Positions 18,471 through 39,284 of a DNA stretch of 64,000 bases are shown piece by piece. Under the pieces are notes generated by a model. That model ran no database searches, was not told where the DNA came from, and saw only the letters and a list, made by a program, of their open reading frames with translations. Position 1 is the stretch's first letter. Every line of letters begins with the position of its first letter. The position numbers were made by a program, and so were the translations under genes. Source of the stretch: Candidatus Geothermarchaeum rappei (GTDB taxonomy: Archaea > Thermoproteota > Nitrososphaeria > Geothermarchaeales > JDFR-13); assembly GCA_002011085.2 (NCBI GenBank), contig MTMB02000001.1, positions 477,820 through 541,819 on the forward strand, read 5' to 3'.

Positions 18471-19832
18471 CTACAATATCTCTGAGAACCTAACTAAAGT
18501 CAGTGCAACATGTTTCATGCTCTTAACAAAGTCCTCAACCCTGATGTTCTCGTTAGGAGCATGGCTCTTAGAGCCATAGTAGCCTACACCCGCGCCTGTC
18601 ATAGGTATCCCAAGCAGGTTGGTAAACATGTATATAGGGCCTGATCCACCTGACAAGGGCGTCACCTGAGGATCTGAGCCGTAGACATCTACGGCGGCTG
18701 ATATAGACGCCTTCACAATAGCCTCATCAGGCTTTGAATATCCAGATGGATACATGCTATGAACCTCTATATCAACATCGTCGAACCCGTTTTCAACAAG
18801 ATACTTCCTCGTCTTCTCAAGCAGCTTCCCAGGATCCTGCCCTGGGACAGGCCGTATATCTATCTTGGCCATAGCATATGAAGGAATAACGGTCTTAGAA
18901 CCCTTACCTATATACCCTGAGTAGATGCCACATACATTCAGTGAGGGAGAGGTTAACAAGGCCTTATATGCATCAAATCCCTTAAGCCCCCCGACAAACT
19001 CCTTGATACCCAGGTCGTCCTTCATCTTCTCAAGCTGACTCGGGTCCAGCTTCTGAATAAGTTCATCAGCCATCTCCAGAAACTCCTCATCGATATCGTC
19101 ATAGAATCCTGGGATAGGGATGTATCCATCCTCCCTCTTCAGGAGAGTTAACAGCCTAACTAGCCTCCATATGGGATTCGGTATCAGGGGAGCGCTCCCA
19201 CTATGGGAATCCCTATTAGCACCCTTTACAGTCAACTCCAAATAAAGCATACCCTTAAAACCCAATGTAATGCCTAGCCTCCCAGTTCTCCCCACATACC
19301 CTGTCTCCCAAATACCTCCCTGGGCAACCAAAAAGTCTCTCTTCTTCTCTATCGCGTTTAGAAAGTTGGGGGAGCCTATCTCCTCCTCACCCTCTACCAC
19401 AAACTTCACCTTAAGCCCAAGCTCATCGAGATAGGGCATTAATGCATCTAAGGCACCGATCCTCGCGGCAATATTACCCTTATTATCCGCCACTCCCCTA
19501 CCAAATAAGAAGCCGTTTTTCCTAGTCATCTCAAAGGGTGGAGACTCCCATAGATCCAGTGGCTCAGGAGGCTGGACATCATAATGATTATAGATAAGCA
19601 CGGTCTTATCACCGGAACCCACCTCACCGAAAACCACTGGATGCCCTCCAAAGCCCTCAACACTAACCTTCACCCCTCTCTCCCTGAGGAGTGATGCGAC
19701 AAGCTCTGCACCCTCATCCATGTGTTCACCAACCGCCGAGACCGTAGGAACACTGATCAGGCTTCCAAGGACATCAACATAATCCTTATAATGAGAATCA
19801 ATAAACCCAAAGACTTTATCTACATCAACCAT
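18471..19832 (-). CDS. M20 family metallopeptidase (ArgE/DapE/dipeptidase-like)
   Basis: VLIYNHYDVQPPEPLDLWESPPFE, GRGVADNKGN, EGEEEIGSPNF metal-site motifs. Confidence 0.9.
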   Translation of the reverse strand: MVDVDKVFGFIDSHYKDYVDVLGSLISVPTVSAVGEHMDEGAELVASLLRERGVKVSVEGFGGHPVVFGEVGSGDKTVLIYNHYDVQPPEPLDLWESPPFEMTRKNGFLFGRGVADNKGNIAARIGALDALMPYLDELGLKVKFVVEGEEEIGSPNFLNAIEKKRDFLVAQGGIWETGYVGRTGRLGITLGFKGMLYLELTVKGANRDSHSGSAPLIPNPIWRLVRLLTLLKREDGYIPIPGFYDDIDEEFLEMADELIQKLDPSQLEKMKDDLGIKEFVGGLKGFDAYKALLTSPSLNVCGIYSGYIGKGSKTVIPSYAMAKIDIRPVPGQDPGKLLEKTRKYLVENGFDDVDIEVHSMYPSGYSKPDEAIVKASISAAVDVYGSDPQVTPLSGGSGPIYMFTNLLGIPMTGAGVGYYGSKSHAPNENIRVEDFVKSMKHVALTLVRFSEIL

Positions 19833-19948
19833 TGGAAACCACCGTCTAACAAAATCCTAATTCCAAAGAAGTATAATAATGTTGCTAATTCAACAGATGT
19901 AATAAATAAAAAACATGTGGTAACCTCATATAAGAAACATCAAAACAT

Positions 19949-20062
19949 CTTTAGGTGTCCATTGACATTGTTATTTTGACGGGTTGTCTTTTGTCACACA
20001 TACAAAATTAAAATATCCAAAAATATCATCCTATTAAATAGAAAAACCCAAAAACAATAACG
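19949..20062 (+). promoter_or_regulatory. CRISPR leader 1
   Basis: AT-rich sequence CTTTAGGTGTCCATTGACATTG...CAAAAACAATAACG directly upstream of array 1; same sequence precedes arrays 2 and 3. Confidence 0.9.
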
Positions 20063-22585
20063 GAATCTCACATAGAGAGTTGAAAGTCAATTCAACTGAA
20101 ATAGCACAAAATTACTACTCTGTTGTGAATCTCACATAGAGAGTTGAAAGTCGACCTCAACCTTCTCCACGAGAATATCGTTATACCTATATGAATCTCA
20201 CATAGAGAGTTGAAAGATTTAATCTATAATGTTGTTTAACTATACGAATTATGTTATGAATCTCACATAGAGAGTTGAAAGTGATGATCCGCTTCTCCTT
20301 GACACTATACTTTAGATGGTCTATGAATCTCACATAGAGAGTTGAAAGAAACTGATAGAGATAGAGAAATATTCAATCGTATTGTAAGAATCTCACATAG
20401 AGAGTTGAAAGTTATATGCTACTCCATCGTTCCCATTCCCGCTGAGGTCTGGAATCTCACATAGAGAGTTGAAAGTAATCATAGAATTTTATGCCTTGGA
20501 TTGGGAAAGAGACTGTATAGAATCTCACATAGAGAGTTGAAAGCCAACGCCTTCTCAATATTCGTCTCAGGCAACGGAATAGGAATCTCACATAGAGAGT
20601 TGAAAGTTTTTGTTCTACCGTGGAAACCGCCATCTTATCGCCAAGAATCTCACATAGAGAGTTGAAAGTGATGATCCGCTTCTCCTTGACACTATACTTT
20701 AGATGGTCTATGAATCTCACATAGAGAGTTGAAAGAAACTGATAGAGATAGAGAAATATTCAATCGTATTGTAAGAATCTCACATAGAGAGTTGAAAGTT
20801 ATATGCTACTCCATCGTTCCCATTCCCGCTGAGGTCTGGAATCTCACATAGAGAGTTGAAAGTAATCATAGAATTTTATGCCTTGGATTGGGAAAGAGAC
20901 TGTATAGAATCTCACATAGAGAGTTGAAAGCCAACGCCTTCTCAATATTCGTCTCAGGCAACGGAATAGGAATCTCACATAGAGAGTTGAAAGTTTTTGT
21001 TCTACCGTGGAAACCGCCATCTTATCGCCAAGAATCTCACATAGAGAGTTGAAAGACCCCTAAGAGATCCAATATCTCTTTTATCATCTTTAACTTCAGA
21101 ATCTCACATAGAGAGTTGAAAGCCGAGATAAACCCCTATTCCAAAACTCAATATTATAAACAGAATCTCACATAGAGAGTTGAAAGGAAACGGTATTTAC
21201 ATATAAATAATATGTTGTTCCACTTTTGAATCTCACATAGAGAGTTGAAAGTTATCCCTATAGCCCCTGGTGTATCGGTAATGATAGAGTGCGAATCTCA
21301 CATAGAGAGTTGAAAGGGTATTTCCCCACCTTCTCCCCATGCTTGGTTATCAAGAATCTCACATAGAGAGTTGAAAGTGTTCACCAACCGTCTTAGTGAA
21401 CTCGGCTCCGTCATCAAGAATCTCACATAGAGAGTTGAAAGCGCTGATTATCCATAGTATATAGGCGAAGACACTCTTTGTGAATCTCACATAGAGAGTT
21501 GAAAGTTTACGGACGTCTTTGGGTATTGTGATTTTCCCTTGTTGAATCTCACATAGAGAGTTGAAAGTTAAGGCGTAGGGTAACAATGTATTTTGTAAGA
21601 CCATACTGAATCTCACATAGAGAGTTGAAAGCAGTATTGGCGTCTCTAAATCTGTGTCTGTTGCCGCTGAATCTCACATAGAGAGTTGAAAGTTTCCTAT
21701 TATTGAAGCCTGCCAATTTAAGATACCTGCTAGAATCTCACATAGAGAGTTGAAAGTCTTCTAACTCTAAGGCTATTTGTCTATCCGCACCAATTTTGGA
21801 ATCTCACATAGAGAGTTGAAAGTCTTTACAATCTCATCTCTCAGTTTTCTCCTCAGTATGAATCTCACATAGAGAGTTGAAAGTCAGTATCTCATGCCAC
21901 TTTATCTTTCTTCCGAACAAATCGGAATCTCACATAGAGAGTTGAAAGGAATGCCAGACTGCCATCGACGCTGTTTACTACGAAGTTCGAATCTCACATA
22001 GAGAGTTGAAAGGGAAAAGTATCATTCAAATATTCATGAAAACTCTCCCATGCTCTGAATCTCACATAGAGAGTTGAAAGACTCAAGCCCCTTGATTTCA
22101 AAGACATGCGTCCACTTACGAATCTCACATAGAGAGTTGAAAGATAAAGAGGACTATGAAGACCCCGCCCTCGAAAACATTATGAATCTCACATAGAGAG
22201 TTGAAAGTTTTAACCTCGATTTCAGAATAGGGATTTATCCTTCTCCTAAGAATCTCACATAGAGAGTTGAAAGAAGCGAGGCACAACCAAGACGCCAGTC
22301 GGGACATGATGAGAATCTCACATAGAGAGTTGAAAGAGATGGCTTTAATTGGTTTACCCTTACGAAGTAACTCCTGAATCTCACATAGAGAGTTGAAAGT
22401 TATACTCGATGCTCCGTTCCCACAGCCGTCTGAAGAAATGAATCTCACATAGAGAGTTGAAAGCACGACTGTTAGGATTGGTTCATTCATTTTTTATTCA
22501 CCTCTGAATCTCACATAGAGAGTTGAAAGGCGCTGATTTCGATGCCTCTGCGTATGAAATGGAATCTCACATAGAGAGTTGAAAG
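20063..22585 (+). CRISPR. CRISPR array 1: 40 copies of 24-nt GAATCTCACATAGAGAGTTGAAAG, 39 spacers
   Basis: Direct reading of regularly spaced identical repeats with unique ~35-45 nt spacers. Confidence 0.99.
20282..21055 (+). repeat. Tandem duplication of a 387-bp block of six spacer-repeat units inside array 1
   Basis: 20282-20668 and 20669-21055 carry the same six spacers in the same order. Confidence 0.95.
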
Positions 22586-22752: not shown

Positions 22753-23691
22753 ATGTTTTATGTAGATCCCTTTGAGCTTGATCGAATGTTACGATATATT
22801 AAGGATCTACATAAGGACGAGGTTATTAGTGACGAGTATAGGGGATGGAATTGGTCTCAAGGTAGGTTAACTCCTATTTCAACAGGCTTATATCTTTCAG
22901 TAAGTGAAATTGCCAATAGATATTGTTCAAATTATAGGGATATCTATCTGAGGAGAGTAGCTAGGGTCTATCCTCCAAAAACTTATAAGAGTGTACGAGG
23001 GCTATTCCTACATCAACTTAGTTCTGAAACTCTTATGTCGTTTAAGTCTTATCTCTATTCTAAAGGAATAGTTAGCGGATATAAGCTTGTTAAGGATATG
23101 CTGGATAAAGGTCCCACTATTATTGATGAACTTTCAAAGAAAATATCAATTAGGAAATACTTAACTTCTAGGGAGACTAAAGCCCTAAAGATGGAAGGCC
23201 TATCACTATATAGGTATCTAGTGATACAAGCCGCTTCAGCGTTGGATAAAGCAGTAAGCTCATCAAGGATGTTGGCTTTAGATGCTATTGTTCATAAAGT
23301 TATTCCAGATGTGGTTGAGATGGGAATCAATGGCCAAGAACTGGGTCTCTCAAAAGAGCTCCGCATAGATGTGTATCTAGGAAAGTTGATTGCTGAGTTG
23401 AAGACAGGGAGTAAAAGGGACTTCCACAAGTATATCTTAGCTGGATATGCTTTGGCTATTGAGGCTGATAAAGAGTTTCCAGTAGACTATGGAGTCGTTA
23501 TATACATATCTATAAAAAATGGGATGGTCAAAGTTGATAAAGATATGTTTTTTATAGGAGATGAGCTTAGAGAAGAGTTTCTTCAGATGCGTGATGAGGC
23601 ATTTGAGATCGTAGAGTCGGGTAGAGATCCCGGGATACACATCAACTGCCCTGAATATTGTATATATTATCATACATGTAGAGGAGGGTAG
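22753..23691 (+). CDS. csa1: Csa1 / Cas4-family CRISPR adaptation protein
   Basis: WNWSQGRLTPISTGLYLSVSEIANRYCSNYRDIYLRRV (Csa1-like N-terminus); C-terminal CPEYCIYYHTC cysteines; precedes cas1. Confidence 0.82.
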   Translation: MFYVDPFELDRMLRYIKDLHKDEVISDEYRGWNWSQGRLTPISTGLYLSVSEIANRYCSNYRDIYLRRVARVYPPKTYKSVRGLFLHQLSSETLMSFKSYLYSKGIVSGYKLVKDMLDKGPTIIDELSKKISIRKYLTSRETKALKMEGLSLYRYLVIQAASALDKAVSSSRMLALDAIVHKVIPDVVEMGINGQELGLSKELRIDVYLGKLIAELKTGSKRDFHKYILAGYALAIEADKEFPVDYGVVIYISIKNGMVKVDKDMFFIGDELREEFLQMRDEAFEIVESGRDPGIHINCPEYCIYYHTCRGG

Positions 23692-23697
23692 TGTAGC

Positions 23698-24714
23698 ATG
23701 AGACTTGTATTAAGTGGATACGGCTATTACATAGGCAAGAAGAGTGGGATGATAGTTATAAAAAAAGACGGTGATAGAAAGATGTATAGTGTTGGAAATA
23801 TAAGTGAACTTGTTGTTCATAGTAGAGGCATCCATTTTTCTGGTGAGGCGTTGGCCTTACTGATGAAACATGGTGTGAAAGTATATTTTATCGATAAACT
23901 AAGGATCCGTGGTAAACTAACACCCTTTAAAAAAGGATCCACAATCTTTATAGTTAAGCACCAGCTGAAGAACCAGGGAAGCCCCCGTGGAAATTATCTG
24001 GCGAAGCGTTTTATAGAAGGTAAAGTGTATAACCAAATTAGTTTTTTAAGGCTTCTTAGAAGGAGGTTTAGAAGGAAGAAAGATGTGGTCACTTCTCTCT
24101 CGACTAAAATCGAGTTGTTAAAGAATGTAATTGGAGAAATCGGAGAAATAGATTTATCCAGTAACATGTTTCGTGAACAAATTATATCTAAGGAGGGAGA
24201 GGCCTCGAGAATCTATTGGGATGCATTGTCGAGTCTACTCCCTGAAGAATATGGGTTTAAAAGACGTATGAAAAGATTTGACAAGCCGAAGGATCCTATA
24301 AATATTTCGTTAAACTATCTCTATACCCTCCTCGCTTCACAGGTTTGGATTGAGACGGAACTATGTGGATTAGAACCGTATATCGGGCTTCTTCATAAAG
24401 ACTCGACTAGGAGACCTGCTTTGGTAATGGATATGATGGAAGAGTTTCGTGTGTCTATTGTCGACAAACCCCTATTTACATATGTATTTAAGCATACTAA
24501 AAAACCGATGTCATGGTTAGAGAACGATGGTAAGCTAACTAGAAAGGCGGTTGAGACGCTTGGTGGATTATTCTTTAAAAGGATAGATGAGTCGGTGACA
24601 TTTCTAAATAGAAGTTATAAGTTAAAAACCCATATAGGGCTTCAATGTAGACGTCTAATCAAGTATCTGATGGGATATTCTGATGAATATATACCGTTTA
24701 AACTCACTAAATAG
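23698..24714 (+). CDS. cas1: CRISPR-associated endonuclease Cas1
   Basis: ISELVVHSRGIHFSGEALALLMKHGVKVYFID; SLNYLYTLLASQVWIETELCGLEPYIGLLHKDSTRRPALVMDMMEEFR. Confidence 0.97.
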   Translation: MRLVLSGYGYYIGKKSGMIVIKKDGDRKMYSVGNISELVVHSRGIHFSGEALALLMKHGVKVYFIDKLRIRGKLTPFKKGSTIFIVKHQLKNQGSPRGNYLAKRFIEGKVYNQISFLRLLRRRFRRKKDVVTSLSTKIELLKNVIGEIGEIDLSSNMFREQIISKEGEASRIYWDALSSLLPEEYGFKRRMKRFDKPKDPINISLNYLYTLLASQVWIETELCGLEPYIGLLHKDSTRRPALVMDMMEEFRVSIVDKPLFTYVFKHTKKPMSWLENDGKLTRKAVETLGGLFFKRIDESVTFLNRSYKLKTHIGLQCRRLIKYLMGYSDEYIPFKLTK

Positions 24715-24732
24715 GATGTATGGGATTGGATT

Positions 24733-25017
24733 ATGAATACTCTAGTTATATACGATATATCAGATGATGACCTGCGAAGTAGGGTGGCTCAGACATGCAT
24801 GGATTATGGCTTGGTAAGAATCCAGAAGAGCGCCTTCATAGGAAGGATAGACAGTCAAAAAAGGAAGGGGCTAGTCAGGATATTAGAGAGACTTATTAAA
24901 TCTCAGAATGATAATATACAGATATTTGTGATCTGTGATGCTGATATAAGGCTTAGGAAGATATTAGGTTTCTCTATGTATGGGGATAAAGAAGGAGACA
25001 CGGTATTTTTTAAATAA
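24733..25017 (+). CDS. cas2: CRISPR-associated endoribonuclease Cas2
   Basis: 94 aa, MNTLVIYDISDDDLRSRVAQTCMDYGLVRIQKSAFIG; follows cas1. Confidence 0.95.
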   Translation: MNTLVIYDISDDDLRSRVAQTCMDYGLVRIQKSAFIGRIDSQKRKGLVRILERLIKSQNDNIQIFVICDADIRLRKILGFSMYGDKEGDTVFFK

Positions 25018-25026
25018 GGTGGTTCT

Positions 25027-25620
25027 ATGTCGGAGGATCTAATTTATATCACCCCATCTGATGTTAAGGATTTTCTATATTGCCCATATATTATGTACTT
25101 GAAGAAGGTCTTAGGTGTTGATGAACCCTTAACAGAATTAATCAAGGAAGGGAGAGAAGCATATGAGCTTCAGAGGCAGAGATCCAAGAGGAGGAAGACC
25201 CTCTTGGGTCTCAAAAAAATAAAACCAGATAATATATGGTTTTCGGTTAAGCTTTATAGTAAGAAATATAGGATATACGGCGTCGCAGACGCCATTTACA
25301 AGGAGGGTGGCAAATACTCCATCCTAGAAATAAAATATGGTGAATATCGGGGAAGACTATCTAAAGACCATTTTTATCAGGCTATGTCATATGCCATGAT
25401 GTTTGAGGAGGAGTATTACAAGCCCGTTTACAAAATAACTGTTTATTACTTGAAAGATAATATCATGGTATCGAGGAGGATAACACAGTATCATAAAAAA
25501 CACTGGCTGAATATTATCAAAGATATCTGGAATATAGTTGACGGAGTATACATACCTAGCCCTATCGACATGGGAGGAAAATGTAGAGTATGCTTTTACA
25601 AGAAATACTGCTATAAATAG
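25027..25620 (+). CDS. cas4: CRISPR-associated exonuclease Cas4
   Basis: ITPSDVKDFLYCPYIMYLKK; ILEIKYGEYRGRLSKDHFYQAMSYAMM; C-terminal CRVCFYKKYC Fe-S cysteines. Confidence 0.93.
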   Translation: MSEDLIYITPSDVKDFLYCPYIMYLKKVLGVDEPLTELIKEGREAYELQRQRSKRRKTLLGLKKIKPDNIWFSVKLYSKKYRIYGVADAIYKEGGKYSILEIKYGEYRGRLSKDHFYQAMSYAMMFEEEYYKPVYKITVYYLKDNIMVSRRITQYHKKHWLNIIKDIWNIVDGVYIPSPIDMGGKCRVCFYKKYCYK

Positions 25621-25670
25621 TTTATACACTGCCAAGCCTTAATTATCTCCACTGTATATCAAATTTATTA

Positions 25671-25688
25671 GAATCTCAAATGGAGAGG
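25671..25688 (+). promoter_or_regulatory. CRISPR-repeat-like element overlapping the putative cas6 ribosome-binding site
   Basis: GAATCTCAAATGGAGAG matches repeat GAATCTCACATAGAGAG at 15/17; TCTC/GAGA stem retained; starts 26 nt upstream of the TTG start at 25697. Confidence 0.55.
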
Positions 25689-25696
25689 TAATCAAG

Positions 25697-26599
25697 TTGT
25701 CTATATTTGAGGTGGAGATAGGGATCTCCCCTAGGGAAGAGTATCGACTTCATAGATATACAGGTTATAGCATCCGATCCCTAGTATATACTCAGATTTT
25801 AAGGGCTTCTAATGCTTCAGTGGATATACATAAGGAGAAGGGTCTAAAACCTTTTAGAGTGACTCCGATATTCATTAAAGGAAATTCTGGGGAGGTAGAT
25901 AAAATAATATATGCGGGGAAAATAGACCCCAATAAAACATATTTCTTTAAAATAACATTATTAGGGAACAAACTCTTCTCCAGGTCTTCAAAAAACCTTT
26001 TTAAACTCCTATCTGAAGACACCATTACTCTAGATAATCATGTATATAACGTTGTAAGTAGGGAGTTTAAAATGATCTCAATCGAGGGCATAGCCTCTGA
26101 AAGTGATGGAGAAAATAAGATAACAGTAAACTACTTAACCCCTACGTATTTTAGAGCCCCAAGAACCTACAATATGGAGTATCGGGTCAATCAAATCCAC
26201 CGATGTAAATGTATATATAAAGAGAATCAAGATAGTATTTTCATACCCCTGCCATTACCAACGCTATTCCTCAAAAATATACTGAGGATATATCATAAGT
26301 ACATAGAAGAAATCAGTGAAGAGCAGCAATATAAATTGAGACAGTATATTAATGAAGACGGGATGGTCATCTCAGGTTTCCCGAAAGGCATTCGTACATG
26401 GGCTATAAAAACCTCAAGATATGAATTCAACATCGGGTTCACAGGTAGAGTTAACTATCATCTAAGAAGATTGAGTTTTATTGAAGATGTTAACATAATA
26501 ATAAATAACCTAAAAAAATTGATCCTAACAGCTCAATATACAAACGTGGGCGGGAACCGAACTGCTGGTTTTGGTTGGATAAAAACAAATATAAGATAA
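25697..26599 (+). CDS. cas6: CRISPR repeat endoribonuclease Cas6
   Basis: 300 aa; N-terminal YRLHRYTGYSIRSLVY; C-terminal G-rich loop NVGGNRTAGFGWIKTN; located in cas cluster next to arrays. Confidence 0.85.
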   Translation: MSIFEVEIGISPREEYRLHRYTGYSIRSLVYTQILRASNASVDIHKEKGLKPFRVTPIFIKGNSGEVDKIIYAGKIDPNKTYFFKITLLGNKLFSRSSKNLFKLLSEDTITLDNHVYNVVSREFKMISIEGIASESDGENKITVNYLTPTYFRAPRTYNMEYRVNQIHRCKCIYKENQDSIFIPLPLPTLFLKNILRIYHKYIEEISEEQQYKLRQYINEDGMVISGFPKGIRTWAIKTSRYEFNIGFTGRVNYHLRRLSFIEDVNIIINNLKKLILTAQYTNVGGNRTAGFGWIKTNIR

Positions 26600-26645
26600 A
26601 AACAGTTTCAAAACCGAACAATAAAAATACGCTTCCCTAACCCGG

Positions 26646-26759
26646 CTTTAGGTGTCCATTGACATTGTTATTTTGACGGGTTGTCTTTTGTCACACATAC
26701 AAAATTAAAATATCCAAAAATATCATCCTATTAAATAGAAAAACCCAAAAACAATAACG
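26646..26759 (+). promoter_or_regulatory. CRISPR leader 2
   Basis: Same 114-bp sequence as leader 1. Confidence 0.9.
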
Positions 26760-27863
26760 GAATCTCACATAGAGAGTTGAAAGTGGTATAACAACCTCAA
26801 TAGTATAGCTATCCCGATAACTCCGAATCTCACATAGAGAGTTGAAAGCCATGGCTTACCAGTCGTCCTCCAACGCCAATAGACATAGAATCTCACATAG
26901 AGAGTTGAAAGCGTGAATAAAATGGATCTGGATGTATATAGATGTTAAATGCAGAATCTCACATAGAGAGTTGAAAGTCTCCTCATCAACCCTGATAAAA
27001 ATTTGAAAAGGAAGTTTGAATCTCACATAGAGAGTTGAAAGTGCAAGGGGACATATCGGATAAAGATTATAGAGAAACAGAATCTCACATAGAGAGTTGA
27101 AAGAGCAGGACTTTCGAGCCAATGTTGTTTATTGTCAGTATTTTGAATCTCACATAGAGAGTTGAAAGTTATCTATCATCCACCTGGTCGTAAAAGGCAA
27201 ATTAGCCTCAGAATCTCACATAGAGAGTTGAAAGATTATGCTTGCAATCGGTTGAATAGCAAATGATCTTGACTGTGAATCTCACATAGAGAGTTGAAAG
27301 TTGTTCACCTTAGAAGCCTTTGCTCCAATGATATATCAGAATCTCACATAGAGAGTTGAAAGTTGTGATAGTTGACTTATTACCTGGCTAGTCTTCTTCG
27401 AATCTCACATAGAGAGTTGAAAGATTATGCTTGCAATCGGTTGAATAGCAAATGATCTTGACTGTGAATCTCACATAGAGAGTTGAAAGTTGGAGATAGC
27501 TTCAGAGCCATTGAAACAAACAATCAGAATCTCACATAGAGAGTTGAAAGTGCTATTGACTTCTCCCTTCTCTATAAAGGCACAGGAATCTCACATAGAG
27601 AGTTGAAAGACATATAAGTAAGGGGATAATCTCATATAGAGAGGCTAGTATGAATCTCACATAGAGAGTTGAAAGTAGCTGGATATGTAGCCCGTGTTAT
27701 CACTTGATACGGAATCTCACATAGAGAGTTGAAAGTTGGGACGTTTATCACGGTTCGGTCCTTCACTTCCCAATCACGAATCTCACATAGAGAGTTGAAA
27801 GGTATTTGGTTATCTCAGTCTCATCCAAGACATGGTAATGAATCTCACATAGAGAGTTGAAAG
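26760..27863 (+). CRISPR. CRISPR array 2: 18 repeats, 17 spacers (one spacer present twice)
   Basis: Same 24-nt repeat as array 1; spacer ATTATGCTTGCAATCGG... at 27235 and 27424. Confidence 0.99.
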
Positions 27864-28148: not shown

Positions 28149-28529
28149 ATGATATCTGGGGAGGCTATACCTAAAAAAATTTATGATATGGCCGTTGAAG
28201 CCGGGACTTCTCTGAAGAAATATGGTGTTAAGAAGGATCAGTTAGAGAAACTTATTCAAGTATACCTAAACTCCTCCGATAGGGTTAGTAGCCTAATGGA
28301 TCTTATTGTGTTCGTCTCTAGACAGGTGGGTAGGGGTCCGATGAAAATGGATCCGGCTAAGATTATTGTTAAACACCTTAATGAATTCAGAGAAAAATAT
28401 GGCCATGACCCAAATCTCCTCGATTTTATAGTTCAAAAATACCTTTATTTGACAAAATGGGTTTACGAATCTGAGGTTAAGAGATTCATTAGGAAATTTG
28501 ATGAGTTCGTTATTGAGGTATTAAGATAG
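28149..28529 (+). CDS. Putative type III small subunit (Csm2/Cas11-like)
   Basis: 126-aa predicted mostly helical protein; first gene of the type III operon. Confidence 0.5.
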   Translation: MISGEAIPKKIYDMAVEAGTSLKKYGVKKDQLEKLIQVYLNSSDRVSSLMDLIVFVSRQVGRGPMKMDPAKIIVKHLNEFREKYGHDPNLLDFIVQKYLYLTKWVYESEVKRFIRKFDEFVIEVLR

Positions 28530-28546
28530 GGGGTTGGTGATTATAG

Positions 28547-29266
28547 TTGACGTATGGGGATCTAGATACTTTGGATATTCTGAATATTATTAAGCTGAAG
28601 ATCGAGGTTATATCTCCTCTATCCATAAAGGCGGGAAGCAGCATTGTAGGTCCTATTGATAACCCCATTGTACGGTTGGGAGGGAAGCCTTTTATCCCTG
28701 GTAGTAGTTTAAAGGGTGTATTAAGAAGTATTGTGGAGAAAATCGCCGGGTCAATGGATTTAGAGTTGCCTGATAAACCATGTAACATTTTAGGTGAGGT
28801 TGATACCGAACGTAATAGAATGGATAAAATGGGGAAGGAATATCGTCCATGTGTAGTATGTAGGATCTTCGGTGGTCCCACATACGCTTCACATATCTAT
28901 GTTTATGACATGCTACCTGTTAACTATAATGTTGAGGAAAGGGTCCGAGTAGCCATAAGTAGGGTTACTGGTAGTGTAGAAAAGGGGCCTTTCAAAGAGG
29001 AGTATGTAACTCCCGGGTCAGTTTTTAGGGGGGAGATACATATAGTAAATATCGATCTCACTTCCGACTCTATTGAGGCCCAATTGTTTAACAGTGCTAT
29101 TCAGATGTTGAACAAAGGCTTGGTTTCTTTAGGAAGTAACAAGAGTATTGGCATGGGTAGGATCAAGGTCTCTATTGAATCTGTGAAGAAAGCCTATTTA
29201 TCTAAGGGTATGGTGAGGGAAGAAGATATTACAGATGAATTCCTTAGGTGTCTTGGAAATGGATGA
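28547..29266 (+). CDS. csm3: RAMP protein, Csm3/Cas7-like, putative catalytic Asp retained
   Basis: GPIDNPIVRLGGKPFIPGSSLKGVLRS; CRIFGGPTYASHIYVYD; GxGR loop GMGRI. Confidence 0.82.
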   Translation: MTYGDLDTLDILNIIKLKIEVISPLSIKAGSSIVGPIDNPIVRLGGKPFIPGSSLKGVLRSIVEKIAGSMDLELPDKPCNILGEVDTERNRMDKMGKEYRPCVVCRIFGGPTYASHIYVYDMLPVNYNVEERVRVAISRVTGSVEKGPFKEEYVTPGSVFRGEIHIVNIDLTSDSIEAQLFNSAIQMLNKGLVSLGSNKSIGMGRIKVSIESVKKAYLSKGMVREEDITDEFLRCLGNG

Positions 29267-30122
29267 GATAAACTGGTATAGGCATGACATCATCTATAGA
29301 CTTTGTATGATGTCTTTAAAACTGAGGAACATATCTGCAATACGCATTGGAGCCAGTAAGGAGGATGTGCTGTTCTCACCTGTCAACCTACCTATTATTA
29401 GGATAATGTTGGGGGATAATATAACTCCATATATTCCAGGCAGTAGTATTAAGGGTGTCTTCAGGAATGTTATAGAAAACATATTAGTGGATAGTGGCCA
29501 CAGAGATGGAAAACTTGAGTCTGAAGATCATGTTATGAAAATCTCCCAAATGATTTCAAGCCTTTATAAGGAGAACCGATCGTATTCTACCGAGGAGGTC
29601 TTGAAGCTGGTTTCTAGATTCGGCTTAGTGTCAAAAGTATTTGGAGCCCCCTCTTACTCGTCGCTGATAGAATTTAGTGACTTTTATCCTGCGAATAATG
29701 TAAAAATAAAAACAGGGGTTAGAGACGGGGTAGCTATAGAGAGGAGGTATGGGAGTGTGAAACATTTTTATAAAGTAGAGTATATCGAGCCAGGTTCGGT
29801 TTTCGAAGGAACAATATTGATTAAAAATCCTCCCAATTACGTTATAGGTATGGTATTCGACGTAATCCATAATTATATTAACACCGGCTTAGTAAGGCTT
29901 GGCGGTTTTAAGAGTAAAGGTTTTGGAAAAGTGGAGATGGAAGTATATTCTGTGGATATCAGGTTATTAAAGAATGCCGTGTTATCCCAGGTGGATAAAG
30001 AGACTCTAAACCCGCTTGATAAATTCGATAAAGAGATATTTTTTGATAGAGAGGATCTGGAGTCCTTTATAGATTCTTCAATAGAGGTTTGGCGTAGCTA
30101 TGTCGAGGAAAATCGAGATTAA
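29235..30122 (+). CDS. RAMP protein, Cas7-like (Csm3-like family)
   Basis: SPVNLPIIRIMLGDNITPYIPGSSIKGVFRN; SKVFGAPSYSSLIEFSDF; GGFKSKGFGKVEM; overlaps previous ORF so start uncertain. Confidence 0.78.
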   Translation: MNSLGVLEMDEINWYRHDIIYRLCMMSLKLRNISAIRIGASKEDVLFSPVNLPIIRIMLGDNITPYIPGSSIKGVFRNVIENILVDSGHRDGKLESEDHVMKISQMISSLYKENRSYSTEEVLKLVSRFGLVSKVFGAPSYSSLIEFSDFYPANNVKIKTGVRDGVAIERRYGSVKHFYKVEYIEPGSVFEGTILIKNPPNYVIGMVFDVIHNYINTGLVRLGGFKSKGFGKVEMEVYSVDIRLLKNAVLSQVDKETLNPLDKFDKEIFFDREDLESFIDSSIEVWRSYVEENRD

Positions 30123-31068
30123 AAGGATAAAGCCTAAGGACAGAATAATATCCAGTTTAGACGGTAAAGTTCTGTACATTGATATAGGAGCTGTAGTGGC
30201 CGATGAGAGTGTTGTCTCCGTTGGAGGAGTATCCGAATATCTTTCCCCCGAAGCTGTCAAAGAATATATTTATCGTGGCGTTGAGAGTAGAAAGATTTTC
30301 GATAAGAGCCCTGAATCCATAATACATGAGATAAGAAGGCTTTTTGAGAGAATCCCTAGGAGGAGGGTGGCCTCAGGTTTTTTCAGAACAGGGGGGCGAT
30401 ACGCTATTCCTGGGACTGCTTTTAAGGGTGCGGTCAGGTCGAGAGTAGAATATAAGTTTATTCCTAAATCATGTGGAGAAGGTGTCTATAAGAGCCCTTC
30501 ATGTTACTCTGTTTTTGGGAATGTACGGACTAAATCCAAGAGGCACATGAAGTTTTATAGGGTCGATGAATCTATAAAAAGATATCCCTGTAGATACGAC
30601 AATAAACAATTTAGATCAGTCTGTCTAGTTTGCGATCTATTTGGGGCTCCTAAATTAGCTTCCCGAGTACTTTTCTCCGACCTTATAATGTCCCATGGGA
30701 AGGTTGAGAGGCTTGATGTAGGTAGGTTTATAAAAGATGTTGAAGTCGCTCTTCCAAAGTCGGAGTTTAAAGGATCCATAGTAGGCTATAACATGAGCAT
30801 GGAAGATGCTGGCATATTATTTCTGGGGTTGGAGGCCTACACCAATCGAAGAATACTGTTGGGTAGATATAAATATAGGACTCTCGAGACCCCTATCCAA
30901 TATAGAGGCAAGAGATTTCGATTCGGCATTGTGGAGATTAAAATTAACAAAATTGTATATGGGGGGAGAGAGCGGGGAGTAAATAAATTTATCGAAGAGG
31001 CTAGGAAGGAGATTATCAAGTATGTTGATGAAGGTTTTCTAGACATAGATATAGGTGTTGTCTCATGA
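30100..31068 (+). CDS. RAMP protein (Csm5/Cas7-like)
   Basis: RYAIPGTAFKGAVRSRVEYKF; CLVCDLFGAPKLASRVLFSDL; in type III operon. Confidence 0.75.
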   Translation: MSRKIEIKRIKPKDRIISSLDGKVLYIDIGAVVADESVVSVGGVSEYLSPEAVKEYIYRGVESRKIFDKSPESIIHEIRRLFERIPRRRVASGFFRTGGRYAIPGTAFKGAVRSRVEYKFIPKSCGEGVYKSPSCYSVFGNVRTKSKRHMKFYRVDESIKRYPCRYDNKQFRSVCLVCDLFGAPKLASRVLFSDLIMSHGKVERLDVGRFIKDVEVALPKSEFKGSIVGYNMSMEDAGILFLGLEAYTNRRILLGRYKYRTLETPIQYRGKRFRFGIVEIKINKIVYGGRERGVNKFIEEARKEIIKYVDEGFLDIDIGVVS

Positions 31069-31373
31069 GCGCTACTAGAATCGATAAAGATGAATTAAAT
31101 AGTCTTTTAAAGAAGGGATGTGGTAAGGCACTAGTATATTCTGTGGATCTTAGTGTAGCAATTAAAATGGTTGGGGACATAGATCCGGACAAGGATTTCC
31201 ACATGGTAATATTCCTAGATAAGGATGATGTAGGACATGCCATCTATAAATATAATGGGCTATTCTATCATGTCATTTTAAGTAGTGAGTTCCTAAATGC
31301 TTTTGTAAACAGGTCTTTTATAGCCGGTAAAGGTAAAAACATGAGGATTAAGGAGTTTTTAAGGGAGGGGTAG
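31065..31373 (+). CDS. Unknown 102-aa protein in the type III operon
   Basis: ORF overlaps upstream RAMP stop and ends 2 nt before cas10; no recognised motif. Confidence 0.7.
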   Translation: MSATRIDKDELNSLLKKGCGKALVYSVDLSVAIKMVGDIDPDKDFHMVIFLDKDDVGHAIYKYNGLFYHVILSSEFLNAFVNRSFIAGKGKNMRIKEFLREG

Positions 31374-31374
31374 A

Positions 31375-34203
31375 ATGAGTGCAATAACTATTCACCCGAC
31401 TTATTTGGTAAAAGGGTTTGTCATCCCTATTAGAGAGGATAAAAAGCCCAGCTATACCTATGTATTTGATGGAAATAGACGTAAAACGTTATATAACGCC
31501 TTGTCGAAAATCCTAGAAACACTCCTTAAATTCTATGTTGATAAGAAGAAGGTAGATGGATTATCATCCGCAGAGGAGCTTGTTGAGTTTACAAACCTCG
31601 TCTACCTCGTCCTTAGAAATTCATTATATAAGGGAATACAGGGAGGCGTCATACCATCGCCCTCGACAATATTCATCGGGTGGTATATATATAGGGCCGT
31701 CGAAGGGGCTGACGCCCCTCCCTTATACACCTCTGAGGGAATCAGACATTTAATTGATACGAAGAAGGGCGATATTTTTCTGGTCGACATATTATATAAA
31801 AAATATGATGAGCTTATTACTCTACTGAATAACTCGATAGATACCTATAAAGATCTCGATTCTCTCCTCGATGACCTTCTATTCTTTCCTGCCGACTCTA
31901 GAGTAGGATCTAATACATCTAGTCTATTGATCCACACTATAATGGTGGGAGGCCTAGCGTTATCCCTTTATCTCGAGAGTGTTTCCTCTCCAGCTAATAG
32001 AGATCTAGCTTATCTAAAGGTGTTATCCCTATTCCATGATGTAGGTAAGTTATTGAGCATTAGACATCACGAGTCTATATCCGCAGGGTTTATAAAGAAG
32101 CTTTTTGGAAATGTGGTCAAAAAAGGCTCAGAAGCTGATGCTGTAATCGAGGAAGTTGTTGAGACCCTGGCTAACAAAGATTCGTTGTTTAGGAGGAAGG
32201 AACTATATAAGTTCTATAAAGATGCTGATCGAATGGCTGCGGCAGCAGATAGGATGAAGAATCTAGTCAAGATACTATTAAGTGATAAAAGTAAGAAGAG
32301 GCTATATGAGATGATTAGCCGCAAGCTCGGTGGTGACATAGGGTTTGACGAGGGTTTTGAGAAGATATTTACTGACATGAGTTTCTGGGATGAGATTTCA
32401 CGTGATGTTGATCTTTATCGGGAGTTGACAGAGGACTTTTGTCTAAACGCCTCTAAAGTAGGGGAGGTCCATGGGTATGTAGATAAAGATGTATTATCCA
32501 ATGATGTAGAGGCAGTTTTCATAGATATCCAGTCGATACAGAGTTACGTTAGGAGTAGCGATATACGCAGCATGATAGGGGGTAGCTTCCTCATAGATAT
32601 GATAATATATGCCTCCATACCTGAGTATATCATGGACAATCTGGATCTGGGTATTGAAAATATATGGCTTAACGGAGGTGGGAACCTTCTATTAACCGTC
32701 CCCAAAAAACTTGTGGATATGCTAAGCGATAATCTAGCTAAAATGATTAGGAATGCGTATTATATAGATCTCTCTATAGCATCTTCTCCTTTATATAGTG
32801 ATTTAAGACTTATATTTGATACTCTCGGGACACGGCATAAGGAGTTGAAGCACACAAAAATCAGTGGAGTAGGCATATATCCCTCTTTTGAGGAGAAGTG
32901 TGGATTATGTGTAAATAGACCCGCTACAAAACCATTGAAAAAAGATGTTGAAATATATGTGTGTGATACCTGTAAGCTTAAATACGATGTGGGAAGTGTT
33001 TTACATTTTTGGTCTAAAGTAGGGAGAATAACCACCCTATTTGGTCAAGAAAATATATTTGAACAACTTAAATCTCTGGATGAGGCACGTAGACTAGACT
33101 TTATGGAGTTAATCGCTAATGGCACTTTAGACCCAAAGAATCTATCCAGGGAGGCCATGAACATTGCGATGGTCAAGTTTGACGGGGCTTTAATAGGTCT
33201 CTTAAGCTCTTCTTCCCTATCTCTCACAGACTCTTTTGAGAGAAGCGTTAGGATTGATATGGCTGTTAAAGAGAGTATAAATAAGTTTCTAGACTATGTA
33301 AGAGATAATATAGACGGTGGTCTATATGCTTCAATACTCCTGGGTATCATATATGTAGGTGGAGATGATGGGGCCATTATTATGCCTTCATATATCGCTC
33401 CCTTCTTTACAGTCTATGTTGCCAATGAATATTATTTAAACATGGGAGGTAAGTCGGTATTATCCTTCTCCATCATAGGTGTAAAATACAAGCATCCTGT
33501 TTATCATCTTTATCAAGCAGCTTCATACCTACTTGATTCACACGGTAAAAAATTAAACAGAGGAGAGTTGGAGCTGGAGCATGTGTATGATATAAGATAT
33601 AAGGTATACAACGAGTTGTACAATGAAAAAATACTTGAATACGGTGGGTTCAGAGGGTCGCTTGCCTTCTACGCGTCAGACACAGGCATAGTATCTACCG
33701 AAACTCTAGAAAACATCCTTCTTTCACTAGAAAAGGATAGATCAAGTATCCAATACTCTACACCCTATTTAATATCTGATGATGAAGTTAGAAGTATATT
33801 TAAACTGTTTACAACGGTATCAAAGGCAATAGATGCAGATAGTGTCATCGACAATATACAGGAAATAAGTTTAGATAAAATAGGTAGGTTGATAAAAAAC
33901 CTACAAAGATCATTCACAAAGGTTAAACATGGGCGTGCGGAGCAAGGGGCTTTAAAGAGACTCAAAGAGGTTAAAAAAAGGTTGTTTAACTCTGTAAGTA
34001 TTAGGATTGCTTATTCAAAAGATATTAGAAGTAGGGTGATCCACTCGATCTCATATGTCTCTAATGTTGATGACATCGAGTCGGTGTTTGGAATCAACGA
34101 TCTTAAAAACATCATCATAAGCCACAAGGATTTTCTAGGGCTATGCTCTGCCGACCTGCTTTTAATGCTTAAACTTACCGGAGGTGGGTTAGGTGGGATA
34201 TAA
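31375..34203 (+). CDS. cas10: Cas10 (Csm1-like), HD nuclease plus Palm/cyclase domain
   Basis: HD motif LSLFHDVGKLLSIRHHES; zinc-finger CGLC...CDTC; IYVGGDDGAIIM (GGDD cyclase motif). Confidence 0.93.
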   Translation: MSAITIHPTYLVKGFVIPIREDKKPSYTYVFDGNRRKTLYNALSKILETLLKFYVDKKKVDGLSSAEELVEFTNLVYLVLRNSLYKGIQGGVIPSPSTIFIGWYIYRAVEGADAPPLYTSEGIRHLIDTKKGDIFLVDILYKKYDELITLLNNSIDTYKDLDSLLDDLLFFPADSRVGSNTSSLLIHTIMVGGLALSLYLESVSSPANRDLAYLKVLSLFHDVGKLLSIRHHESISAGFIKKLFGNVVKKGSEADAVIEEVVETLANKDSLFRRKELYKFYKDADRMAAAADRMKNLVKILLSDKSKKRLYEMISRKLGGDIGFDEGFEKIFTDMSFWDEISRDVDLYRELTEDFCLNASKVGEVHGYVDKDVLSNDVEAVFIDIQSIQSYVRSSDIRSMIGGSFLIDMIIYASIPEYIMDNLDLGIENIWLNGGGNLLLTVPKKLVDMLSDNLAKMIRNAYYIDLSIASSPLYSDLRLIFDTLGTRHKELKHTKISGVGIYPSFEEKCGLCVNRPATKPLKKDVEIYVCDTCKLKYDVGSVLHFWSKVGRITTLFGQENIFEQLKSLDEARRLDFMELIANGTLDPKNLSREAMNIAMVKFDGALIGLLSSSSLSLTDSFERSVRIDMAVKESINKFLDYVRDNIDGGLYASILLGIIYVGGDDGAIIMPSYIAPFFTVYVANEYYLNMGGKSVLSFSIIGVKYKHPVYHLYQAASYLLDSHGKKLNRGELELEHVYDIRYKVYNELYNEKILEYGGFRGSLAFYASDTGIVSTETLENILLSLEKDRSSIQYSTPYLISDDEVRSIFKLFTTVSKAIDADSVIDNIQEISLDKIGRLIKNLQRSFTKVKHGRAEQGALKRLKEVKKRLFNSVSIRIAYSKDIRSRVIHSISYVSNVDDIESVFGINDLKNIIISHKDFLGLCSADLLLMLKLTGGGLGGI

Positions 34204-34828
34204 CATTAAATTAACAGTAGTCGGAAAGACTAGAAAGCTATTAAATATAGGGGGGCCAGTAATAGATCCTTCTAGAGGGGACAATCCATTCTATAGAATA
34301 ATAGATTCTGAAGGAGAATCTTATTTATATATACCAGGGAGTACATTAAAAGGCGTTCTTAGAAAGTCTGCTTTGAAAGTCGCTGGGTTATTGGGTTATA
34401 AAGTGGGGTTTAGTGTACATCCGGATATTATGGATCACGAGGATATTGTCTCAAAGGTTTTTGGAGCACCGGGGCTAAAAAGTAAGATAATAGTGTCGGG
34501 AGCATTATTAAGTGAAATGAGTATAGTGCCGGAAATCTATACACATATCAGAGTCGATGAAAAGACTGGTATTGTAGACGAAGGAGCCTTGTTTGAACGT
34601 GAGTATCTGCCTATAGGTACATCTTTTGAATTCGAGATAAATGGTTATGACATGGATATTGAGGAAGCTAGGCTATTGCTGGCTGCTTTATATGAGATGC
34701 GATACGAGAAGCTGGGTAGAGGGGGTTTAATTGAAGTCTCACTTAGGAAGACGGGCTGCCATATCCCAAATGAATTGTTGGGAGATGATGTTGTGAGGAT
34801 GATATATGATGAACTTGCTAAGGAATAA
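34193..34828 (+). CDS. RAMP protein, Cas7-like
   Basis: GDNPFYRIIDSEGESYLYIPGSTLKGVLRK; SKVFGAPGLKSKIIVSGA; 211 aa. Confidence 0.75.
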   Translation: MGYNIKLTVVGKTRKLLNIGGPVIDPSRGDNPFYRIIDSEGESYLYIPGSTLKGVLRKSALKVAGLLGYKVGFSVHPDIMDHEDIVSKVFGAPGLKSKIIVSGALLSEMSIVPEIYTHIRVDEKTGIVDEGALFEREYLPIGTSFEFEINGYDMDIEEARLLLAALYEMRYEKLGRGGLIEVSLRKTGCHIPNELLGDDVVRMIYDELAKE

Positions 34829-35891
34829 TATAGATGATCTCTCTCTCTATAGGGTTGAGATTAGGGTAAGAACTCCTCTGATCTTGTCGGGAGAGCCTCT
34901 TGGCAGGATCTGGGCTACAAACATTAATTTTATACCTGGCTCGACATTTAGGGGAGCTCTATTATCATATATGTATAACCATAGTCATCTATCTAATAGG
35001 GTCGTATCCGAAGCATTTTCACCAACCGTATATTTTCAACCCTTACTACCTGTGTATATGGATAAAGAGTGTAGACATGCTGATCCACTTATATATAAGT
35101 GTAAAATATGTGGAGAGACTGTATTCTATAGACCCCCTCTCGATGACTATATATCATTCCCAAGTGAATGCAACAATGGTCACTATGGAACGTTAAAGAG
35201 TGTGGGAGGGGCTTTGATAGTTGACAAGGATGTTGTGAATGTGATAAGATATGTGTATATCGAGAGTGTAGGGATAAACAAAGTCACCGAGACATCGGAA
35301 AAAGGGATGTTATATAGCTACTCAGCAATCGCTCCCAACACTAGATTCAAAGGCCTAGTCTTAGATAGAGGAGGTCTAATACAAGAGTATATAGATAACT
35401 ATGGTTATCCATCTACAATATATTTGGGAAGAGGGATCTCGAGAGGCTTTGGATGGTGTGAGTTGAATATAAATCAGATAGATGTCGGAGACTACATTAA
35501 TAATCGGGGGTCTCAAATCCATTCATACCTAGAAAAGTCGAATTATCTAGTATTGAGGGGTAAGTCCCCTCTTGTCTTCATGGATAGTAAAGGGTTTACG
35601 CCTAAACCAAAGCTGGTTGTTAAAGGTTTAGAAGAGCATATCCCGTTTAAATATGTAGATAAAAACTATTTACTTGTTAGAGGACTGTACCATTTAAGGG
35701 GTTTTGGGGCGAATAATCTGCCAAAAGCTCACATCTCGGCTGTAAAGCCTGGGAGCATATTCTTTTACAAAATTAAGTCACATGATAAACTAGATGATCT
35801 CGTGGATCATCTAGTTGAATTGGAGTTGCTAGGTCTCCCGCCTTATAACCATATAGGTTTAAATTATCTTGAGGTGCTGGTATGGTGTTAA
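34806..35891 (+). CDS. RAMP protein, Csx10/Cas5-like (type III-D)
   Basis: TNINFIPGSTFRGALLSYMYN; internal CKICGETV zinc-binding-like pair; YLGRGISRGFGWCEL. Confidence 0.65.
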   Translation: MMNLLRNNIDDLSLYRVEIRVRTPLILSGEPLGRIWATNINFIPGSTFRGALLSYMYNHSHLSNRVVSEAFSPTVYFQPLLPVYMDKECRHADPLIYKCKICGETVFYRPPLDDYISFPSECNNGHYGTLKSVGGALIVDKDVVNVIRYVYIESVGINKVTETSEKGMLYSYSAIAPNTRFKGLVLDRGGLIQEYIDNYGYPSTIYLGRGISRGFGWCELNINQIDVGDYINNRGSQIHSYLEKSNYLVLRGKSPLVFMDSKGFTPKPKLVVKGLEEHIPFKYVDKNYLLVRGLYHLRGFGANNLPKAHISAVKPGSIFFYKIKSHDKLDDLVDHLVELELLGLPPYNHIGLNYLEVLVWC

Positions 35892-36787
35892 AATATAAGG
35901 AGTCTCTCCAAAATAGATGGATACTAATCATCCGGTTTAAACTGGCTTCCCCACTACATGTAGGACGTGGGCAGGAAGGTATTTACAATAGAATAGTATT
36001 TTCTAATGTAGAGGGAGGACTTCATCCTATTGTGCCAGCGTCAAGTATTAAGGGAGTATTTAGAGACTTGTCAACTAAGATAGCTAAGAATTTGGATTTT
36101 AGAAAGCCTCTAACTAATAAAATTGTGAATAATCACGTTATAGACAGTCATTTTCCAGTAGAAAAGGCTGATGATGATACTAATAGAGTTAGGGTCTATA
36201 GAGAAACCTATTTCCAAGGATATGATGGCATCGATGACGATGAATTTAAGCTGGCATTGGCCAGGGAGTTGTCATCGGGCCTAAATACCTCTCTAGACAG
36301 TTTTCTAGAGCTGCCGGTTGAAGAGATTATAGAACTTTATCTATCTATGAAGTGTCCGATATGTCGGTTATATGGTGCTCCCGGCCTTTCTTCAAAGACA
36401 ATTTTTTTAGACGCTGTAGTCAAAGGTTCCTATCAAGTCGGGTTATATACGGGGACCGCGATTGAGAGGAAGACGGGAATCGTAAAAGCGAAGCATCTAT
36501 ACAATGTAGAGTATGTATATCCTAAGGGAGAGACCTGGGTCGACATACATATATATATCGATAATATGGATGAAGATGAGGAGCTTCTAATAAAAAGTCT
36601 GATAGGCCTAATTAAGGCAACTGGATTGAGGCTAGGAGGATTGAGGTCAAGGGGATATGGCCTTCTGAAGCTGGATATTGAAAATTCCTATGCTGTCAAG
36701 ACTATTTTTGACGGAGGGCCCGAGGAAAACATCACCAAGCTCCTTAGAGGGGGGACTAGAGTCTCACTAGAAAGTTTATTAGGCTAA
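35882..36787 (+). CDS. RAMP protein, Cas7-like
   Basis: LHVGRGQEG...HPIVPASSIKGVFRDLS; CPICRLYGAPGLSSKTIFLDA; GGLRSRGYGLLKL. Confidence 0.77.
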   Translation: MVLKYKESLQNRWILIIRFKLASPLHVGRGQEGIYNRIVFSNVEGGLHPIVPASSIKGVFRDLSTKIAKNLDFRKPLTNKIVNNHVIDSHFPVEKADDDTNRVRVYRETYFQGYDGIDDDEFKLALARELSSGLNTSLDSFLELPVEEIIELYLSMKCPICRLYGAPGLSSKTIFLDAVVKGSYQVGLYTGTAIERKTGIVKAKHLYNVEYVYPKGETWVDIHIYIDNMDEDEELLIKSLIGLIKATGLRLGGLRSRGYGLLKLDIENSYAVKTIFDGGPEENITKLLRGGTRVSLESLLG

Positions 36788-36791
36788 TATT

Positions 36792-38381
36792 TTAATCCTC
36801 TCGCGTATCTACCATCTCTCTCCAGTTTTCAACCATTATCTCGATATATTCTCTTAATAAGCCTATATGGGCTATAAAATTCCTTTTTGTATGATCTCTA
36901 CTTCTACTATCCTCCACCAGACTTACAAAATCCCTAGGTTTGAAACTATCTACATACCGGAGTCTAATACTCTCCTTTATTTTCTCGATAGTCTTATCCA
37001 TACTGATATCTTTTTTCCACCTATCCTTTTTTATCATATCATTTAATATTCTCCATCTATCCATATTTGAAAGCACGACACTTTTATAGTTTTCATAGAC
37101 GACTCTTCCAATCTCGCCATATAATTCTCTCTGTACAAATGAGGAGACAACATTTGAAAACTTAGACAAAACCTCATCTGTAATAACCTCGATATCTGAG
37201 AAGCTGACGCCCTCAGACTCCACATCTCTTTCGATATATCCCTTCTCATTTAGAAAACATTTTATGCCTAACCCAACTGACAATGTCTTTAGGATATCTA
37301 TATATTTGAGGGCAACGCCTTTTTCAAAGACATCTCTAGTCTTAAGAAGAAGGGTGTCATCATCTATTTTTATAGGCTTGGCTTTATCAAGCATCTTATC
37401 AATAGTTGAAATCATGTTAGTAATATATCTTAAATTCGCCTTAGAAGGGTCGAGCTTTTTAAAATACCTTGGGATCATATCCAATAAGCCTAGGGGTAGA
37501 GAATGCTTTAGGCTATAATAGACAATTCTTACATAATTCGTGTAACCCTCACCGACTTTATCCAGAGTTAAAATATTCCTATAAAATCTTTTCTCATCAT
37601 TGGATAATCCCCTAATACATGACTCGGGTTTACTAATCACCTTATCTGGAATCTCTTTTGGAATCATCTCCGAGATATTTTCAAATCTTGAGCTCTCAAT
37701 AGTTACAATCCTATTTATCCGCAGCATTTTAATGCCATATGTATGTGGGTCTGAATTGAATATTCTCAGAATGGTGTTTCTCCTATTCAATTTCATTAAC
37801 ACGATACTCTCATACAAGTCTCTAGCCGCCATACTGATTATAACAGGCATATAATTTATCCCATGTGTCAAGTCCAGCCAAACTTCATCTATATCTGGAT
37901 TCTCAATACATATTTTAAGGGTATGTAGATATACGTATAGCCTCACAAGCTCTAAATCACCGTCAAAAACGATATTTATATCCTTTTTTTTCAAAGTGAA
38001 CCTCCCTATCCCGGGAGTAACCACAACATTCAAGGCTTTTCTCAGAACCTTACTAATATCCACCCCAGGATTCTTATTTCTGAAAATTTCGTTGAATTCC
38101 CACATCTTCTCACAGATATAGTTTCTGACTCTATCCCTAATCTCATTATAGCTCAGTTTAACCAGATCGCCAGCATTAGTGACTCTATCAACTATTAAGC
38201 TCTCAGGGACAACAACACAGATTCTGGTAACTTCATATCCGTTTCTTATAGCATGATATACAAGTGGTAATATCGTAGTTTTAGATATAAGTCTATCTCC
38301 TGTATCCTCTACAAGATAAGTTACCTCTTCCCAATGCGGTTTTCCCCAAGGAGCTATTATCAATACCTTATTTCTCATCAT
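36792..38381 (-). CDS. csx1: Csx1-family CARF-HEPN protein (putative cOA-activated RNase)
   Basis: N-terminal VLIIAPWGKPHWEEVTYLV CARF-like; WLDLTHGINYMPVI; C-terminal RNFIAH (R-x4-H HEPN motif). Confidence 0.78.
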   Translation of the reverse strand: MMRNKVLIIAPWGKPHWEEVTYLVEDTGDRLISKTTILPLVYHAIRNGYEVTRICVVVPESLIVDRVTNAGDLVKLSYNEIRDRVRNYICEKMWEFNEIFRNKNPGVDISKVLRKALNVVVTPGIGRFTLKKKDINIVFDGDLELVRLYVYLHTLKICIENPDIDEVWLDLTHGINYMPVIISMAARDLYESIVLMKLNRRNTILRIFNSDPHTYGIKMLRINRIVTIESSRFENISEMIPKEIPDKVISKPESCIRGLSNDEKRFYRNILTLDKVGEGYTNYVRIVYYSLKHSLPLGLLDMIPRYFKKLDPSKANLRYITNMISTIDKMLDKAKPIKIDDDTLLLKTRDVFEKGVALKYIDILKTLSVGLGIKCFLNEKGYIERDVESEGVSFSDIEVITDEVLSKFSNVVSSFVQRELYGEIGRVVYENYKSVVLSNMDRWRILNDMIKKDRWKKDISMDKTIEKIKESIRLRYVDSFKPRDFVSLVEDSRSRDHTKRNFIAHIGLLREYIEIMVENWREMVDTRED

Positions 38382-39192: not shown

Positions 39193-39284
39193 AAATTTTA
39201 GCTACCATGAAAAGCCAAAATAAACCATTTCAACATATTATAAAAATACTGAAAAAGTTAATAAAATTCCCTTTTCAAAAACAT

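Follow-up and report, generated by a model that had tools for sequence, protein, structure and literature searches.

Why does a solitary copy of the hairpin part of the CRISPR repeat lie over the translation start of cas6? The initial annotation had read it as a sign of possible Cas6 autoregulation, and this reading was followed up in the window (the whole 64-kb stretch of DNA that was analysed), in the genome to which it belongs, a single archaeal contig of 1.58 Mb, and in other genomes that carry this cas6.

The CRISPR-Cas locus and the repeat-like element

The locus is arranged in the order array 1, csa1, cas1, cas2, cas4, cas6, array 2, type III-D effector genes, CARF genes and array 3, with the following features:

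20063 to 22585, plus strand: CRISPR array 1, with the repeat GAATCTCACATAGAGAGTTGAAAG
22753 to 25620, plus strand: adaptation genes csa1, cas1, cas2 and cas4
25621 to 25696, plus strand: cas4-cas6 intergenic region, 76 nt, with the TATA-like TTTATAC (from 25621) and TGTATATC (approximately 25654 to 25661)
25697 to 26599, plus strand: cas6 (TTG start, 300 aa, invariant H45), the sole cas6 of the genome
26760 to 27863, plus strand: CRISPR array 2, directly 3' of cas6
28149 to 36787, plus strand: type III-D effector genes (small subunit, Cas7-type RAMPs, Cas10 and Csx10-like Cas5)
39399 to 39814, plus strand: CRISPR array 3

Across the three arrays, the repeat is present in 64 exact copies and one copy with a single change, and nearly identical leaders (19927-20062, 26624-26759 and 39263-39398) stand one 5' of each array. 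Array 1 contains a 300-nt stretch of several repeat-spacer units (20258-20557) that is perfectly duplicated 387 nt downstream (20645-20944), and array 2 a smaller duplication (27211-27303 and 27400-27492). On the minus strand, the stretch from the type III-D operon to array 3 holds a Csx1-type CARF/HEPN gene and another gene of the CARF family (36792-39192). Because there is a single cas6 and the search for a type I system, which covered cas3, gave no match above the family cut-off in the genome, the CRISPR system looks like type III only. Self-targeting spacers with 16-nt matches were absent from the sampled 464 kb.

The element GAATCTCAAATGGAGAG (25671-25687, plus strand) is a solitary hairpin identical to the first 17 nt of the repeat at 15 of 17 positions; only position 9 (C to A) and position 12 (A to G) are changed. 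Its parts, and the Shine-Dalgarno (SD) sequence that follows, are:

25674 to 25677, plus strand: 5' arm of the stem, TCTC, the same as in the repeat (fold and sequence)
25678 to 25682, plus strand: 5-nt loop AAATG (ACATA in the repeat), which contains both mismatches
25683 to 25686, plus strand: 3' arm of the stem, GAGA, with the predicted Cas6 scissile position after 25686 (between A and G, as in the repeat)
25685 to 25693, plus strand: SD sequence GAGGTAATC, 8/9 identical to GAGGTGATC, preceding the TTG start at 25697

The match, the retained stem and the placement of both mismatches in the loop were thus correct, in sequence and coordinates, as first reported. The element overlaps the translation initiation region of cas6, and its overlap with the SD sequence also stands. 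The SD sequence itself, which had been taken as GGAGAGG within the element, is better read as GAGGTAATC, so that only the 3' arm of the hairpin is touched; the placement follows the zone from -15 to -11, where GAGGT and GGTGA are enriched in this genome.

The similarity to the repeat ends at the predicted Cas6 site. Only 2 of the 7 nt after the 17-nt match, which overlap the SD sequence, agree with the repeat, and the 8-nt 3' handle GTTGAAAG is absent, with GGTAATCA in its place (agreement at G17 and at the same 2 of the last 7 nt); mismatches are accordingly distributed as 2/17 in the hairpin part versus 5/7 in the last 7 nt (hypergeometric probability of approximately 0.009). The predicted hairpin energy was -3.4 kcal/mol for the element and -3.0 kcal/mol for the repeat. 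When a longer leader was folded, the 4-bp TCTC/GAGA stem with the 5-nt loop was predicted, as in the repeat, and with the isolated 24-mer a register shifted toward the SD sequence was preferred; these folds were weak and no better than those of shuffled sequences (z from -0.04 to -1.21), and the same holds for the repeat itself. A hairpin-reading Cas6 uses a short stem and the A-G step at its base, which is the cleavage point (PMC4041471), and judging from sequence and predicted fold the element retains these features of the known hairpin mode of recognition.

Chance as an explanation of the match

Throughout the genome (1.58 Mb), only two sequences outside the arrays' repeats were within two mismatches of the 17-mer, the element and a piece of a spacer, and both sit within the CRISPR locus. 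The second is:

27627 to 27643, plus strand: repeat-like 17-mer TAATCTCATATAGAGAG (15/17), inside the 42-nt spacer 27610-27651 of array 2

At exactly three mismatches there were 11 sites, and a backwards control pattern had 9 sites within three mismatches; from these counts, approximately 0.6 chance sites with two or fewer mismatches are expected in the whole genome. In the other intergenic stretches of the locus the best match to the repeat, on either strand, was 10/17, and among the regions upstream of approximately 390 genes (464 kb of this genome) the next-best match was 12/17. When upstream regions of this genome, SD sequences included, were described by a position-specific first-order model, the probability of a match of at least 15/17 was 1.5e-5 per gene; cas6 was included in the training of the model, so this value errs, if at all, slightly in favor of chance. 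The SD sequence therefore does not explain the match, which bears out the initial statement on this point, and the element is too close to the repeat for chance.

That an SD-overlapping hairpin came to resemble the repeat by accident is consequently unlikely. In favor of such a coincidence, the SD sequence accounts for part of GAGAG, generic GAATCTC-N4-6-GAGARV hairpins occur at the background level in these genomes (10 matches vs 16 for the backwards control), and the element was picked after the fact out of a 64-kb window, which weakens the probability; yet cas6 is the gene that one would name in advance. Against it, a probability of approximately 1.5e-5 for one gene leaves approximately 0.03 expected occurrences across roughly 1,700 genes, and the match stands upstream of cas6, the single gene that encodes a protein recognising this sequence.

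Transcription and conservation of the element

For the first genes of transcription units in this genome, TATAT is enriched 35-45 nt ahead of the start codon. In the cas6 gap, TATAT falls inside this zone, at -41, and TTTATAC stands at -76. With the latter as the promoter the transcript would include the element, and with the former transcription would start inside it; the hairpin would then be present only on read-through RNA from cas4, and a role at the DNA level would be more plausible. Transcription through the element, since it could start inside it, is thus the main doubt about a model acting on RNA.

A role at the DNA level would be that of an operator, in which the imperfect dyad TCTC-N5-GAGA, lying between the TATA-like sequence at -41 and the predicted start, is bound by a Cbp1/Cbp2-like protein or by the CARF protein encoded at 38368-39192, and cas6 is repressed. 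The position of TATAT in the zone enriched for the TATA boxes of first genes agrees with this, and the element resembles the non-canonical sites of Cbp1, which binds repeat-like sequences outside the arrays in Sulfolobales (PMC10883916). Unlike the element, however, those are DNA sites defined by a 6-bp core motif at the repeat's 3' end (PMC10883916), which is missing here (GTAATCA follows 25687), and the dyad was not found upstream of the other cas operons. We regard such an operator as improbable.

For the comparison among relatives, Cas6 relatives were collected by whole-genome and contig searches, and the 250 nt upstream of cas6 was compared with the genome's own repeat in 16 genomes with a known repeat and this Cas6 subfamily (the window included). 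No repeat-like element was found upstream of cas6 in 13 of the 16 (shuffle P above 0.2). Of the relatives that have this cas6, Candidatus Scotarchaeum otlingeri (listed under Geothermarchaeota) is the nearest, and its genome is the sole one of the same family that carries the gene; the csa1-cas1-cas2-cas4-cas6 order is the same there, and the 49-nt cas4-cas6 gap has a TATA-like box and no copy of that genome's own repeat. An element conserved upstream of cas6 in relatives and tracking their own repeats, for which the initial annotation had looked to this region, is thus not observed. A 14/17 match of a Calditenuis sequence (L100, ~5893) to its own repeat at approximately -105 was not credited, as it apparently lies within the coding sequence of the gene that precedes cas6 (read by eye), and TTTTAGCGGGATGAAAAC, suspected to be a repeat upstream of the cas6 of another genome (G361), is present in a single copy and hence is not one.

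Non-coding repeat-like copies upstream of cas6 were found in only one other genome of the 16 (G278), whose repeat differs from GAATCTCACATAGAGAGTTGAAAG by one base, so the window is not the only place where stray repeats occur close to cas6. In that genome, two degenerate copies, matching at 21/24 and 19/24 and 27 nt apart, stand just upstream of cas6 (contig L026, ~19270-19350, minus strand). The sampled downstream neighbors of that cas6 are non-cas genes, and the 27-nt spacer is partly complementary, with a gap, to DNA upstream of the first repeat (P of approximately 0.01), somewhat like a CreR module. Among the genomes compared, the repeat-like arrangement over the SD sequence is found only in the window.

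These comparisons bear on a neutral origin, in which a repeat was left between cas4 and cas6 by off-target integration or by a lost array, GAGAG later became part of the SD sequence, and there is no regulatory role. The spacing of the genes, confirmed as first given, is 6 nt for csa1-cas1, 18 nt for cas1-cas2, 9 nt for cas2-cas4 and 76 nt for cas4-cas6, the last exceeding the syntenic gap of Ca. Scotarchaeum otlingeri (49 nt) by 27 nt, or about one repeat. The lack of conservation, the presence of arrays on either side of the adaptation genes and the decayed repeats near cas6 in the second genome would also fit a remnant. The changes are uneven, however, with the stem intact and all changes of the 5' part in the loop, and neither leader-like nor spacer-like sequence was seen beside the element. 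Even so, a neutral remnant is nearly as likely as Cas6 autoregulation.

Possible Cas6 autoregulation and known systems

The best explanation, to which we assign a probability of approximately 0.37, is that the element is a solitary repeat-derived hairpin in the cas6 leader, which Cas6 binds and at which it perhaps cuts its own mRNA, lowering cas6 translation. The leader would be transcribed, either as read-through from cas4 or with the upstream TATA-like sequence as promoter, and surplus Cas6 would bind the TCTC-N5-GAGA hairpin as it binds pre-crRNA. Bound Cas6 would cover the overlapping SD sequence, so that less cas6 is translated, and it may also cut after 25686, splitting or shortening the SD sequence; plentiful pre-crRNA would draw Cas6 away by competition and so lift the block. 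The further proposal of direct feedback, in which Cas6 acts on a repeat mimic over its own ribosome-binding site and its output tracks the amount of pre-crRNA with neither guide RNA nor effector complex, is somewhat less probable.

What is directly observed is the match, its statistical strength, the intact stem, the SD overlap and the single cas6. Together with the type III-D setting and the hairpin features, these are the parts of the first proposal of autoregulation that stood, and the missing conservation and TATAT at -41 are the parts that did not favor it. The 15/17 identity with an intact stem at so low a chance probability, a hairpin energy like that of the repeat, and conservation that stops at the Cas6 site suggest autoregulation, and by analogy so do the lone repeat-like site cut by Cas6-3 in ncRNA60 (below) and the degenerate repeats near cas6 in the second genome. 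On the other side, the element is lacking in the syntenic relative and in 13/16 genomes, transcription could begin from TATAT at -41, the hairpin is weak, and two of the five loop bases are changed. The confinement of the mismatches to the loop, although confirmed, is not necessarily harmless: Cas6-1 of S. solfataricus seems to read the loop sequence (PMC4041471), so the two changes could weaken Cas6 binding. The lost handle had been taken to favor binding without canonical cleavage; since the cut falls 5' of the handle, its loss is no argument against cleavage. A seed for a repeat-derived regulatory RNA, the other function first suggested, is disfavored, as the lost handle, the part on which effectors rely, speaks against loading as crRNA: the product would be without the normal 5' tag of a crRNA, which makes a mechanism based on a guide unlikely.

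Ribosomal proteins that act on their own mRNAs are a known example of autogenous control by target mimicry; in the same way, although here as a proposal only, the RNA-binding protein Cas6 would recognise in its own leader a copy of the RNA that it normally binds. Degenerate repeats near cas genes, in cas-linked mini-arrays, are said (Shmakov 2023) to have been proposed or shown to regulate. The nearest precedent is ncRNA60 of S. solfataricus, which adjoins sso1421, very close to cas6-3, and has one repeat-like site that is cut by Cas6-3, the product being found in the CSM complex (PMC4041471). Like the element, it is a lone repeat-like site near a cas6 gene of an archaeon with type III systems; its RNA has a crRNA-like 5' handle and is loaded into CSM, whereas the element has no handle and lies on the cas6 SD sequence. 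The ectopic repeats of CreR and CreA are likewise degenerate solitary repeats near cas genes, for which regulation has been proposed or shown, and psi-R2 of CreA also lacks the 3' handle (PMC12737573, PMC9458426), its eight handle nucleotides being largely degenerate and the rest kept to an intermediate degree (PMC9458426). Those repeats make guides with which Cascade or Cas12a represses promoters, whereas the element comes with neither a guide nor a further repeat, and the search for a type I effector, by cas3, found none.

A CreR-like module, in which a crRNA-like RNA made from the repeat directs an effector to a cas promoter, would have a precedent in CreR itself, a crRNA-like RNA through which type I and V-A cas operons regulate themselves (PMC12737573). 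We consider it highly improbable here: the gap contains neither a 3' handle (the crRNA 5' tag) nor a second repeat, whereas in such modules a spacer partly complementary to a cas promoter lies between two repeats, and because the system is type III-D and RNA-directed, with a single cas6 and no cas3 match above the family cut-off, promoter silencing by Cascade with a crRNA-like RNA is unlikely. The Racr RNA anti-CRISPRs are also solitary CRISPR-repeat mimics, but they are phage-encoded and inhibit immunity (PMC10651486), whereas the element is chromosomal and in cis to cas6.

Ectopic repeats are thus already known as regulators, mainly of type I and V-A systems, where repeat-derived autoregulation of cas genes works through guides and effectors. 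The open-access literature that was searched gave neither a case of Cas6 regulating the mRNA that encodes it nor one of a repeat mimic placed over the ribosome-binding site of cas6; such a mimic, if real, would be a new form of this known regulation. Cas6 autoregulation, if true, would amount to a simpler loop, with the processing enzyme itself as the sensor of its substrate, and would illustrate how stray repeats can serve control in a genome where the only machinery in view is of type III.

As for the second repeat-like 17-mer, searches for a viral source in IMG/VR with 25-mer and 20-mer probes gave no match, and one phage match and the results of degenerate viral searches were at the level of chance. 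The copy may have come from a repeat-bearing mobile element or from the CRISPR locus of another strain. The spacer that holds it is of normal length (42 nt), and TAATCTCATATAGAGAG stands there in the repeat orientation and is followed by G, as in the cas6 element.
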